DNA of 64,000 bases from Prevotella communis (GTDB lineage: Bacteria; Bacteroidota; Bacteroidia; Bacteroidales; Bacteroidaceae): NCBI RefSeq assembly GCF_022024115.1, contig NZ_CP091792.1, forward strand, positions 1,364,001 through 1,428,000. Reading direction: 5' to 3'. Positions 28,931 to 63,933 of this stretch are shown here, piece after piece. The notes under the pieces were generated by a model that ran no database searches, was not told where the DNA came from, and saw only the letters and a program-made list of their open reading frames with translations. The translations under genes were made by a program, and so were the position numbers. The first letter of the stretch is position 1; each line of letters opens with the position of its first letter.

Positions 28931-30523
28931 TTATTTCTTATTATCTACGGCAGCCTGCTCAATGGGGAGACACTGCTTGTAGTTCTCGATGTATTTCTCG
29001 AATCCTGCGACATCTTCTGGGGTGGGGGCGATGCTCACACCTGTATTGCCTGCGAATACCACTGTCTCCAGGTAATCGGCCAGTGACAATTTATTGGGGT
29101 TGTTCACCACGTAGCCAGCCAGCAGGGCGATACCCCACGCACCGCCTTCGCCAGCAGTCTCCATCACACTGATAGGACTGTTCAGGGCTGCAGCCAGCAT
29201 ACGCTGACCTACACCGGCAGTCTTAAAGTAGCCACCGTGACCAGTGATGCGATCCACGCGAATCATCTCGTCCTTAAACAGAATATCGTTACCGATTTTC
29301 AATACACCGATGGCACCGTAGAGATGGGCACGCATGAAGTTGGCCAAGTTGAACTTGTCATTAGCTGAGCGCACAAACATGGGACGACCCTCGCTGAGAC
29401 CTGTTACGGGTTCACCGCTGACGTAATTGTATGCCATCAGACCACCGCAGTCAGCATCACCCTCCAATGCCTTGTTAAACAGTTTTCCGAAAAGCTCGTT
29501 CATATCCACTTTTAAGCCCATCAGCTGTTGATATTCCTTAAATAAACCTACCCAGGCATTGATGTCTGAAGTACAGTTGTTGCAGTGTACCATAGCTACC
29601 AGACTTCCGTCAGGTGTTGTCACCATGTCAATCATCTCGTAGGGCTTTGAAAGCGGCTTTTCTAATACAATCATTGAGAAAGAAGAGGTTCCTGCGCTCA
29701 CGTTACCTGTGCGCTGCTTTACAGCATTGGTAGCTACCATACCTGTGCCGGCATCACCTTCTGGAGGACATACCGGACATCCAGGCTTCAGATGACCACT
29801 TACGTCCAGTTTCTTGGCACCTTCGGGAGTCAGGAAACCAGCGTTTTCGCCAGCATTCAGACTCTTTGGCAGAATGTCGAGTAATTTCCAGCTGAAGCCT
29901 TTGGGTGCAATCAGCTCATCGAATTTCTTCACCATCTCGGCATCGTAGGTCTTTGTGGCGGGGTCAACAGGAATCATACCTGATGCATCACCAACACCCA
30001 GTACAAACTCGCCAGTTACCTGCCAGTGCACATAACCTGCCAGTGTTGTCAGGTATTTGATGTCTTTTACGTGCTCCTCATTGTCAAGGATGCACTGATA
30101 CAGGTGTGAGATGCTCCAGCGAAGGGGAATGTTATAATTAAACAGTTCTGATAGCTTGGCAGCAGCTTTGCCTGTATTCGTGTTACGCCATGTGCGGAAA
30201 GGCACCAGAATCTGCTGGTCTTTGTTGAAGGCCATGTAGCCGTGCATCATGGCTGAGAAGCCGATGGCAGCCAGTGTCTCAAGCTCACAGTCATACTGCT
30301 TCTGCACGTCTTTGCGTAGCTCGGCATAACAGTCCTGCAGTCCATACCATACAGCCTCGGTAGAGTAGGTCCACAGTCCGTCAACGAGCTGATTCTCCCA
30401 CTCGTGTGAGCCCTGAGCAATGGGGTTGTTGTCTTGGTCGATAAGTACGGCCTTGATGCGTGTGGAACCGAATTCGATTCCCAAAATGGCTTTACCAGCC
30501 TCAATGGTTTGTTTTGCGGTCAT
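28931..30523 (-). CDS. FGGY-family carbohydrate kinase, probably a ribulokinase/xylulokinase-type enzyme
   Basis: The ATG at 30523 is used because the promoter lies in the upstream part of the open frame; 530 residues. FGGY kinase features are clear: [17 protein letters not shown] (phosphate 1), [12 protein letters not shown], the [13 protein letters not shown] and [16 protein letters not shown] region, and a C-terminal FGGY_C domain with GHGGYFKT and [14 protein letters not shown]. Such enzymes phosphorylate ketopentoses; relatives in Bacteroides lie next to transketolase and rpiB in arabinose loci, so L-ribulose is a plausible substrate, as is D-xylulose. The downstream tkt and rpiB would feed the product into the pentose phosphate pathway. 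Confidence 0.85.
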
Positions 30524-30552: not shown

Positions 30553-30584
30553 CAAAGTTAACACTTATTTTGCGAATGGCCAAA
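30553..30584 (-). promoter_or_regulatory. Promoter of the kinase-tkt-rpiB operon
   Basis: TTTG (30584-30581), a 20-bp spacer and TAACTTTG (30560-30553) on the minus strand match the consensus, 29 bp before the start codon. The 22-bp repeat array begins 75 bp upstream of the -33 box. Confidence 0.8.
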
Positions 30585-30658: not shown

Positions 30659-30781
30659 AAATCAGTGGTTTTGACATCGTCAAGTAGGGACTTAGAGGTC
30701 GTAACCCTATGGTTTACGCATCGTAAACCTATGGTTTGTGAGTCCAAAACCTATGGTTTAGCATCTCTAAATCAGTGGTTT
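30659..30781. repeat. Six-copy array of a 13-bp palindromic repeat with 9-bp unique spacers (22-bp period)
   Basis: Copies start at exactly 22-bp steps: 30659, 30681, 30703, 30725, 30747 and 30769. The core is AAACCTATGGTTT (perfect at 30725 and 30747, one change at 30703); the two outermost copies are both AAATCAGTGGTTT and the copy at 30681 is strongly decayed. The 9-bp spacers differ (for example TGACATCGT, ACGCATCGT, AGCATCTCT). Arms of 5 bp (AAACC/GGTTT) flank a TAT centre. No coding frame fits a 22-bp period. The array lies in the 375-bp gap (30524-30898) between uxuA and the kinase gene; the rest of that gap holds the kinase promoter and a GC-rich hairpin, and I see no gene in it. Confidence 0.85.
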
Positions 30782-30830
30782 TTAAAAAGCGGCAGAATAA
30801 GGCGTTGTTTCTGTGGGGGAAATAAGGCCT

Positions 30831-30880
30831 CCCCCTCATATTGGAGTCCCCCTTATAGGGGGACGAAAATATGGAGGGGG
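30831..30880. repeat. Long GC-rich nested inverted repeat after uxuA
   Basis: An outer arm CCCCCTCATATT (30831-30842) pairs with 30868-30880 with one bulged G, and an inner arm GTCCCCC (30846-30852) pairs perfectly with GGGGGAC (30858-30864) around a TTATA loop. It lies 19 bp after the uxuA stop and probably folds in the transcript as a terminator or 3'-protecting structure; there is no U-run, so a REP/MITE-like element is equally possible. Confidence 0.7.
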
Positions 30881-30898
30881 CGAGACCTCAGAAGGGGG

Positions 30899-32152
30899 TT
30901 AGTCGAAGAAACCAGGTTGCTTGTAAGGGATACCCAATTCCCGGTCAACCGTTGCAAGGATGCCTTGAACCTGACCAAGTGCAAACATGCGTCCCAGAAG
31001 GGTGTAGCCGGCATTGTGTCCGTGACTGCTTTCGTCCATAATACCACCAGGTTCGTCAGTGAACGTCATACCGTGGTCAACACGCATAGGAAGTGCAGGG
31101 TTCTCTTTTTCGAAAATACGGCACAGCTCAATCAGATCGGCACGTCCGCCTAAGTGACTTGCTTCGGTAAAATCGCCGTTGGGGAAAATGTGGCATGAGC
31201 GGAGATGAACAAAATGGGTGCGAGAAGCAAATTCCTTTGCCAGCTCAACCACATTGTTGTAAGCACCGGCGCTCAGTGAACCTGCACAGAATGTCAGACC
31301 GTTGTGCTTGTTGGGTACTGCATTTAAGAACCAGCGAATGTCCTCTTCGGTACGTACAATACGCGGTAAACCGAGGATTTCAATTGGGGGATCGTCAGGG
31401 TGTACGCACATGTTGATATTGCACTCCTCGCAGACAGGCATGATGGCCTCAAGGAAGTATTTCATGTTTTCGCGTAACTGCTTCTTGTCTATGCCTTTAT
31501 ATAAGTCAAGGAATTCGCGGAATTTCTGGATTGGAGCTTCGTCGTTTTCGCTGAAATTACCAGATACGAAACCCTGTGTTTTGATGACGATAGTCTCTAC
31601 CAACTTGTGGTCTTTTTCGGGTGTCATGGTCTTGGCAAGCTCGTCGCATTCGGCTATGACGCTGCGACCTTCTCCCCAACCTTCGGGAAACTGGAAATTC
31701 TCCCATTCCTCGCGAGCACCAGGGCGCTTCAGGATGTAAATGTCGAAATAGGCAAATTCGGCATAGTTGAAGTAGAGGTTGGTGGCACCGTTGGGGTTGT
31801 CGTGGAATAAGTCTGTACGGGCCCAGTCAAGTACGGGCATAAAGTTGTAGCAGATGCAGTTGATGCCTTCTGCGGCAAGATTGCGCAGGCTCTCTTTGTA
31901 TACTTCAATCTGTTGGTCACGGTCAGGACCGCCATATTTGATAGTTTCGACCACGGGGAGCGATTCTACCACGCTCCAGCGCATGCCATAGCTTTCAATA
32001 TACTCGCGCAGTTCGCGAATTTTTTCACGTGTCCACACTTGGCCAAGGGGTACATCGTGCAGGGCAGTAACAATGCCCTCAACGCCAATCTGTCTCAGTT
32101 GGGCAAGCGTTATCTTGTCTTTCTTGCCAAACCATCTCCAAGTTCTTTCCAT
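30899..32152 (-). CDS. uxuA: Mannonate dehydratase
   Basis: With the ATG at 32152 the protein has 417 residues; the frame is open 13 codons further but those overlap the promoter. It dehydrates D-mannonate to 2-keto-3-deoxygluconate in hexuronate breakdown. Recognisable stretches are RTWRWFGKKDKITLAQLRQIG, ALHDVPLGQVW, NMCVHPDDPP with metal ligands, FCAGSLSAGAYNNV, VHLRSCH and the C-terminal VDHGMTF and GRMFALGQVQGI. Length is close to the family norm of about 390-400. No other glucuronate genes (uxaC, uxuB) are in the window. Confidence 0.95.
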   Translation of the reverse strand: MERTWRWFGKKDKITLAQLRQIGVEGIVTALHDVPLGQVWTREKIRELREYIESYGMRWSVVESLPVVETIKYGGPDRDQQIEVYKESLRNLAAEGINCICYNFMPVLDWARTDLFHDNPNGATNLYFNYAEFAYFDIYILKRPGAREEWENFQFPEGWGEGRSVIAECDELAKTMTPEKDHKLVETIVIKTQGFVSGNFSENDEAPIQKFREFLDLYKGIDKKQLRENMKYFLEAIMPVCEECNINMCVHPDDPPIEILGLPRIVRTEEDIRWFLNAVPNKHNGLTFCAGSLSAGAYNNVVELAKEFASRTHFVHLRSCHIFPNGDFTEASHLGGRADLIELCRIFEKENPALPMRVDHGMTFTDEPGGIMDESSHGHNAGYTLLGRMFALGQVQGILATVDRELGIPYKQPGFFD

Positions 32153-32192
32153 TTCTTTCTTTTTGTTTGTTAAAGGTTTTCGAAATTTCATG

Positions 32193-63755: not shown

Positions 63756-63829
63756 GGTTCCGTAGCTCAACTGAATAGAGCATCTGACTACGGATCAGAA
63801 GGTTGTGGGTTTGAATCCCGCCGGAATCA
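63756..63829 (+). tRNA. tRNA-Arg (anticodon ACG), copy 1
   Basis: The 74-base sequence folds as a tRNA: acceptor GGTTCCG pairs with CGGAATC (one G-T), D stem GCTC/GAGC, anticodon stem TCTGA/TCAGA with loop CTACGGA (anticodon ACG at 63790-63792, reading CGT and, after A34 deamination, CGC/CGA), and T stem GTGGG/CCCGC with loop TTTGAAT. Discriminator base A; CCA is not encoded. Confidence 0.95.
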
Positions 63830-63858
63830 CATTCAAAGGTTTGCGACAAAGGAACGGA

Positions 63859-63932
63859 GGTTCCGTAGCTCAACTGAATAGAGCATCTGACTACGGATCA
63901 GAAGGTTGTGGGTTTGAATCCCGCCGGAATCA
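63859..63932 (+). tRNA. tRNA-Arg (anticodon ACG), copy 2
   Basis: The sequence is identical to the tRNA at 63756-63829 over all 74 bases, 103 bp further on (anticodon at 63893-63895). The 29-bp spacer has no promoter, so both come from one transcript that ends at the terminator following this copy. Confidence 0.95.
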
Positions 63933-63933
63933 C

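Follow-up and report, generated by a model that had tools for sequence, protein, structure and literature searches.

The array and its gene setting

What kind of element is a row of six short palindromes, set at a strict period in a gap between two genes of Prevotella communis, and does it serve the genes beside it? The row lies in the stretch of 64,000 nucleotides analysed here (the window), and the first-pass annotation had offered for it an operator array, a nucleoid- or replication-protein site, or a mobile repeat family with its own expansion mechanism. The features of the locus are the following.

30659..30781, no strand: the complete array of six 13-bp sites, stepped by 22 bp and separated by five 9-bp spacers ('subtype A', a label coined in this analysis)
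30659..30671, no strand: unit 1, AAATCAGTGGTTT, same letters as unit 6
30681..30693, no strand: unit 2, CAAGTAGGGACTT, decayed
30703..30715, no strand: unit 3, AACCCTATGGTTT, one change
30725..30737, no strand: unit 4, AAACCTATGGTTT
30747..30759, no strand: unit 5, AAACCTATGGTTT
30769..30781, no strand: unit 6, AAATCAGTGGTTT
30716..30724, no strand: near-palindromic spacer ACGCATCGT at the middle of the array, which as a whole forms an imperfect dyad around it
30553..30584, minus strand: likely kinase promoter, 75 bp from the array, picked by eye after the Bacteroidetes promoter motif, with TAACTTTG at 30553-30560 and TTTG at 30581-30584
28931..30523, minus strand: ORF, presumably a sugar-kinase gene (name from the first-pass annotation); listed to 30583, the ATG at 30523 being likelier, a start 136 bp from the array
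30899..32191, minus strand: ORF with its 3′ end toward the array, on the other side from the kinase gene, presumably uxuA-like (name from the same source)
30782..30898, no strand: rest of the gap on the uxuA side, with a G+C-rich 23-bp inverted repeat (arms 30831-30853 and 30857-30879)

The gap is thus bounded by the 3′ end of the uxuA-like gene on one side and the start of the sugar-kinase gene on the other, both on the minus strand. The six 13-bp sites at an exact 22-bp period that had been described were all recovered, five of them good, unit 2 decayed and the end copies identical. Tandem Repeats Finder gives 30699-30765 as a repeat of period 22 (score 74). A model-free scan for four consecutive palindromes with 5-bp arms and a 3-bp centre, run at every period from 16 to 30, had a single match in the 64 kb, the window array at period 22, the other periods being empty; such runs had 0 matches in 300 first-order Markov simulations of the 6 kb around the array. 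The 9-bp spacers had been called unique, and they do differ from one another, but they are neither unique nor random, following patterns common to the other arrays of the genome. By eye, spacers of the left half read approximately WGRSRTCST and those of the right half approximately its reverse complement, so that many arrays of this genome are imperfect long dyads. Rfam returned nothing relevant for the 6 kb around the array, with two sub-threshold chance matches. Elsewhere in the window, at 63756-63933, Tandem Repeats Finder marks two tRNA-Arg (acg) genes as a 103-bp tandem duplication with 98% matches.

The closest relative that we found (G136) is 90 to 93% identical over the genes of the window locus and carries an array in the same gap, though of another subtype. 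Its equivalent of 30782..30898 is unrelated sequence with a GGGACAG-type inverted repeat of its own, so that the gap seems to collect inserts. The array of G136 in the same gap, the 75 bp to the kinase promoter motif, and a helical phase and palindromes that suit a cooperative repressor would all agree with a local operator array bound by a regulator of the adjacent operon, here kinase-tkt-rpiB.

A dispersed family

In the window's own genome (G000, a single contig of 3,567,699 bp), a search with AAAYCWRTGGTTT gave 11 sites, several of them within further 22-bp arrays, and 0 with the reversed control. A covariance model built from five arrays of this genome (R1) had 30 matches within an E limit of 10; they fall in about 16 places (weakest E 0.7), most of which show 3 to 7 sites on a 22-bp grid. 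Copies of the window type are alike over ~126 to 129 bp, that is, over the array itself, with one pair extending to 204 bp, while other subtypes share their flanks as well, the arrays at 690k and 1736k being 99% identical over 231 bp. Along the contig, the spacing of the 16 places is uneven and that of a random distribution (CV 0.98, P 0.66). With a family this sparse and irregular, the window copy is probably a minor or relict member of it, and not a switch of the neighbouring operon. As side observations, the subtype D arrays (1917k, 690k, 1736k and 1652k) adjoin a larger dispersed repeat that recurs elsewhere in the same 3-kb loci, and the arrays at 3404k and 2433k have beside them repeats of a second family, in which GTGAGAGG/CCTCTCAC motifs abound.

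R1 matched 5 of 60 relatives (own genome counted), all inside the genus. The search of related genomes for the palindrome at 22-bp steps that the first-pass annotation had suggested did uncover a dispersed family: 35 of 299 genomes of the genus (own genome counted) contain the strict form with two units, a lower bound since the pattern misses G017 and other variants, with a maximum of 153 per genome and 0 for the reversed control. The distribution within the genus is patchy, and in a sample of the phylum the pattern was found in 1 of 345 genomes, the window's own. Among the matches listed for genomes of named species (at least 120 stretches), 110 are from Prevotella, Hoylesella, Xylanibacter or Prevotellaceae, and isolates with arrays include H. 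saccharolytica JCM 17484, H. marshii DSM 16973 and P. ruminicola KHT3. The palindrome varies by species (AAAGCTATGCTTT, AAACCTATGCTTT, AAAGCTAAGCTTT and others), with AAA/TTT ends and the 22-bp step.

Of the ten further stretches in that listing, seven were inspected. Rows of three to five units were seen in Mediterranea massiliensis, Bacteroides bouchesdurhonensis, Candidatus Bacteroides merdavium and Caecibacteroides pullorum. These appear to be genuine relatives, and the family may extend, with few copies, past the limits of Prevotellaceae. Two-unit matches in Lewinella and Lactococcus look like chance; the Lactococcus match recurs at the same locus in two species (AAAGCAAAGCTTT and AAAGCTTTGCTTT) and is probably unrelated. 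We found no earlier description of such arrays in Prevotella in the open-licence literature, and they are apparently undescribed so far, while recurring in rumen and oral relatives of Prevotella.

Placement in an array-rich genome

The anatomy of the family was read most closely in G063, a rumen MAG of ~1.6 Mb (81% complete), of which 1,145,245 bases, parts of 20 of ~60 contigs, were read. Its perfect units number 310, where the reversed consensus has 6. The first-pass annotation had named random spacing of the 13-mer as a sign against a specific function; here, all perfect units up to 200 bp apart lie at multiples of 22 bp, the pairs falling at 22 (191), 44 (127), 66 (69) and 88 bp (2) and at no other distance. 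The 96 clusters, a count that wholly decayed arrays would escape because clusters were seeded on a perfect unit, have four units in 78 cases, five in 9, three in 3, six in 1, two in 1 and one in 4. The palindrome arms are ~78 to 100% conserved per position and the inner spacer bases weakly. Enough flank to orient the array was available for 76 of the 78 four-unit arrays, and these show a one-sided flank, approximately TTGAAAATCAG-N4-TTA, in phase with the 22-bp grid.

Of these 76 arrays, 64 lie in clear gaps between genes, 8 over a predicted ORF (94 to 347 aa) and 4 at the edge of a stretch, gene calls being longest-ORF guesses made with no gene finder. The gaps are codirectional in 36 cases, convergent in 15 and divergent in 13, the corresponding numbers for background gaps of at least 100 bp being 154, 62 and 66, and neighbouring arrays have the same orientation in 25 cases and the opposite one in 24. 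Among the matches listed for named species (at least 120 stretches), 27 of the 84 with both neighbouring genes called are in convergent gaps, 41 in codirectional and 16 in divergent ones, with 19 matches over a mostly short ORF and 20 at edges.

These counts bear on the operator reading. Some genomes hold a hundred or more arrays, and in G063 the three kinds of gap are occupied at near background frequency. Neighbouring genes share no specific recurring member, since clustering gave housekeeping or large paralogous families (the largest cluster being 10 ABC-type ATPases from 7 sources), and positions are not kept between distant relatives: at 126 conserved gene adjacencies of distant species (ten overlapping genome pairs), an array was present in both genomes in 0 cases and in one of them in 7. 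The special link to the kinase-tkt-rpiB operon that had been proposed is not borne out, and we consider a local operator unlikely. From the idea of an operator array with sites for a dimer, the strict helical phase stands, as do palindromes that are held while the spacers are free.

Spacing along chromosomes

Arrays are over-regularly spaced in five of the six genomes read, with means of 5.4 to 31 kb, H. marshii (G100) being the exception. In G063, 72 gaps have a mean of 11.9 kb and a CV of 0.42 (0.56 with another script, array detection differing slightly between scripts), where random placement gives 0.92 ± 0.09; none of the gaps falls below 5 kb, and 17 ± 3 shorter than 3 kb would be expected under random placement. 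When arrays were instead placed in the real gene gaps, 0 of 1000 simulations were as regular, and gaps below 5 kb numbered 0 versus 25.

The contigs of the other five genomes were picked for having matches. G006 (383 kb) has 22 arrays, or 23 clusters with the other script, two of them 120 bp apart, with a mean spacing of 14.2 kb and a CV of 0.37 (0 of 2000 simulations); the detector controls gave 0 for periods 20, 21 and 24, 1 for period 23 and 4 for the reversed consensus. Over-regular spacing was likewise found in G228 (200 kb, 10 arrays, mean 19.7 kb, P(min gap) 0.0033, with 3 matches in the period-23 control), in G224 (199 kb, 6 arrays, mean 30.8 kb, P(CV) 0.0057, controls of periods 21 and 23 giving 1 and 2) and in G017 (60 kb, 10 arrays, mean 5.4 kb, P(min gap) 0.0007). 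No regularity was seen in H. marshii (10 arrays over 400 kb, P 0.35). Among the matches listed, the G017 genome has 2 gaps below 3 kb (1.5 and 2.6 kb) versus 11.4 expected, and in the isolate Hoylesella saccharolytica (G192) the smallest of 15 gaps is 6.6 kb (P(min gap) 0.0064), with a CV that is not unusual (P 0.14). Since the arrays are shorter than usual sequencing reads, assembly collapse is an unlikely source of the even spacing.

Insertion exclusion could produce such a pattern. Random filling of G063 with a 5-kb exclusion reproduced the CV under one detection, although under the other it failed to match the narrow centre of the distribution (P 0.0003) and came near to failing on the CV (P 0.009). 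The minimum gap scales with the mean spacing in five of the six genomes, and a single exclusion of 3.4 kb valid for all genomes fails to account for those minima (Fisher 1.6e-6). An exclusion specific to each species would fit the data. An element that excludes its own insertion is the main rival to a chromosomal anchor, the reading that we develop below.

Copying and conservation of the arrays

That rival would be a miniature non-autonomous mobile element (MITE- or REP-like), moved by a transposase or recombinase acting in trans, surviving between genes only and brought to even spacing by target immunity. Much in the sequences agrees with it. In G063, near-identical spacers occur at separate places (for example, with 1/27 spacer differences) whose flanks are mostly unrelated, and the nearest-neighbour distance between spacers is 5.72, against 7.24 ± 0.12 for shuffled columns. 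Spacer likeness there sometimes covers only part of an array, and one pair has common flanks too. G017 has ~400 matches to a ~185-bp element of about five 22-bp units with conserved flanks, 201 of them forward and 199 reverse, with 1 in the control; one conserved end of this element, TTTTTAACAGAATTATCTTTACAA, looks promoter-like. In general, the element is common to the dispersed copies and the flanks mostly are not, as in MITEs. The long identity between the 690k and 1736k arrays of the window's genome, the different subtype in the window gap of G136, the patchy distribution in the genus and the CV obtained for G063 with a ~5-kb exclusion fit as well.

Sites at orthologous positions, however, speak against it. 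An array that P. ruminicola KHT3 shares with a MAG, in a gap flanked by the same genes in both, differs at 1/52 palindrome and 10/27 spacer positions (Fisher 5e-5; differences counted by eye), so that palindromes stay while spacers change. The four matched units of the window and G136 arrays differ at 7/52 palindrome and 16/27 spacer positions (Fisher 4.7e-5), but this pair is weaker evidence of selection because the G136 array resembles a different subtype of the window's genome, as if it had been converted or replaced. As far as the sequences tell, arrays are copied or converted, while palindromes outlast spacers. An ordinary minisatellite, in which whole units are copied with their spacers, can be set aside, since spacers differ within most arrays printed, although recent unit duplications exist (for example at G006:C3:44918); the first-pass annotation was right to see the array as unlike ordinary tandem duplication, and its suggestion of a mobile repeat family holds to the extent that a dispersed family with its own spreading is supported.

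Y1 transposase genes (PF01797, all Y1 including RAYTs) show no association, being present in 9 of the 15 genomes with arrays and likewise in 9 of the 16 others; they are absent from G063 (153 pattern matches) and G192 (86) and present once in G006 (116). In addition to the lack of a recurring specific neighbour gene, the IS5-like terminal repeat of BrickBuilt elements was found within ~400 bp, at up to 1 mismatch, of 0/76 arrays in G063 and 0/14 in the window's genome. No clear target duplication emerged either: a scan of G063, in which the ends are uncertain, gave at the best boundary 16 of 76 arrays for 4 bp, 12 for 5 bp, 10 for 6 bp, 2 for 8 bp and 1 for 9 bp, and the short (4-6 bp) direct matches at the array ends are probably conserved element sequence. 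Partial arrays are few in G063 (the one two-unit and four single clusters of the 96 from perfect-unit seeds), and the scaling of minimum gaps with mean spacing also counts against a mobile element. We regard this explanation as a serious possibility, albeit one that we would rather doubt than accept.

Curvature and folding

With A/T tracts every ~11 bp, the DNA of the arrays should be curved, with all sites on one side of the helix. A wedge model predicts 90 degrees per 87 bp for the 76 arrays, against 30 ± 15 for shuffles, and 34 degrees when the steps are set to 23 bp; its optimum step is 21 bp, not 22. In G063, where five contigs were scanned, predicted curvature places 33 of 38 arrays above their overall 99th percentile, but only 9 of 38 above the one calculated for their intergenic DNA. 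The window array reaches the 99.76th percentile of its 64 kb.

Could the array act instead as a transcribed structure, a long RNA hairpin at mRNA ends or in termination? Six folded strands (from five arrays, the window array on both strands) were all below shuffles, with z from -1.8 to -5.6, and one terminator-like stem lies inside the array, but self-palindromic units pair by construction. In the sets of 78 and of 76 oriented G063 arrays, pairing within arrays was never above, and often below, pairing between arrays; the low pairing z-scores come partly from mixed orientation and from the TAT/ATA centre triplet, so we claim only an absence of support for hairpin maintenance. Convergent gaps are not clearly preferred in G063, nor do they dominate among the matches listed above. 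An RNA role thus appears very improbable, and as hairpin pairing is not maintained, DNA is likely the active form. The conserved G/C positions, seemingly not needed for curvature alone, argue for a specific protein too.

Viral arrays and a candidate binder

Of 9 viral stretches that carry the pattern, 6 have it in a DUF6291 gene or one small ORF upstream, and in one phage type the array-bearing DUF6291 gene is beside a DnaB helicase gene. These observations would suit replication-origin-type iterons (like those of the phage lambda ori), of which chromosomal arrays would be further examples or decoys. But a survey of 71 DUF6291 phage loci gave arrays in 4 rows only, all previously found, and DUF6291 genes are present in 3 of the 15 genomes with arrays and in 1 of the 16 others; a general role of DUF6291 as the binder is not borne out. 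The chromosomal arrays have no common neighbour, and a hundred regularly spaced copies are ill-suited to an origin, so that we give iterons hardly any credence as an explanation of the family. We note separately that phage contigs bear AAACC(ATA/TAT)GGTTT arrays, with the 22-bp step, inside DUF6291 genes or shortly ahead of them, which may be origin iterons, and that a 49.5-kb viral contig has two arrays, each of four identical AAAGCATAGCTTT units, ~21 kb apart.

Comparison with known systems

CRISPR repeats are 20 or more nt long and are accompanied by longer unique spacers and cas genes; with 13-bp repeats and patterned 9-bp spacers, the arrays do not belong there. Plasmid and phage iterons are short tandem sites at about two helical turns that mark one origin, whereas the arrays recur over the chromosome. 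Sites of Noc and SlmA are single and do not form 22-bp rows. They are, according to excerpts of PMC4331003 and PMC4726725, scattered over the chromosome and bound by one DNA-binding protein with a link to the nucleoid and division; the arrays are likewise scattered round the chromosome. A further likeness is to DNA that pins plectonemes: excerpts of PMC6301789 describe pinning in vitro by curvature over ~70 bp, and the predicted curvature of the arrays, over ~80 bp, is near that scale. The pinning DNA of that source lay upstream of promoters, while the curvature of the arrays is part of a dispersed, regularly placed element.

The nearest described kinds are REP/BIME and BrickBuilt elements, for each of which one defining feature was tested for and not found. 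Excerpts of PMC2817692 and PMC6907758 present REP/BIME as high-copy intergenic palindromes in composite rows, species-specific and with proposed chromosome-organising roles, BIMEs being candidate supercoil barriers. Like the REP/BIME of enterobacteria and pseudomonads, the arrays are high-copy intergenic palindromes (96 clusters in 1.145 Mb of G063); unlike them, they have a fixed 22-bp step, a mostly fixed unit number (four in G063) and no association with Y1/RAYT. They may also differ in their even spacing along the chromosome. BrickBuilt, in excerpts of PMC4596501, is an intergenic, dispersed minisatellite/MITE of Porphyromonas gingivalis with short tandem units of 23 nt without spacers, in 1 to 23 copies, with a leader and tail and IS5-like terminal repeats. 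The arrays resemble it in being dispersed rows of short tandem units between genes of Bacteroidetes, and differ in their period of 22 and in combining a palindrome with a variable spacer.

A proposed anchor, curved and putatively protein-bound

Hairpins that are not maintained, predicted curvature and conserved G/C positions together point to a curved, putatively protein-bound anchor or boundary as the best explanation. The window array would be one copy of a dispersed, helically phased family, often with four to six palindromic sites. Dimers of a putative sequence-specific protein would bind side by side along the array, and the resulting curved nucleoprotein row would pin the tip of a supercoil loop, or form a domain boundary or anchor. 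In array-rich species the arrays would stand between genes at species-typical, quasi-regular distances, and their copies would spread, and be homogenised, by copying or by gene conversion between arrays. The anatomy, period, dispersal, mostly intergenic placement, regular spacing, lesser change of palindromes than of spacers, and predicted curvature on which we build were observed or computed here.

Several points go against the anchor: no binder was found, the arrays of H. marshii and of the window's genome are irregularly placed, positions are unshared between distant species, and the curvature optimum is at 21 bp. A curved array that spreads, is putatively bound by protein and serves to anchor the chromosome or to divide it is nonetheless our best reading, held at somewhat less than even confidence. 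More tentatively, a fuller version can be proposed for some Prevotellaceae, in which curved, putatively protein-bound arrays of four to six sites would form a lattice at species-specific intervals of ~5 to 30 kb and position supercoil loops or domain boundaries, their sequences being kept alike genome-wide by gene conversion and selection acting on their spacing and not on gene position. We think this version possible, with the doubts outweighing the confidence.

In E. coli, the barriers of topological domains look randomly placed, according to excerpts of a review (PMC6907758). If the anchor reading is true, evenly spaced, sequence-marked sites would provide a direct way to ask what sets domain size, for example in Hoylesella saccharolytica; if the arrays are instead a mobile element with exclusion, they would show very clearly the mark that such exclusion leaves on a genome.
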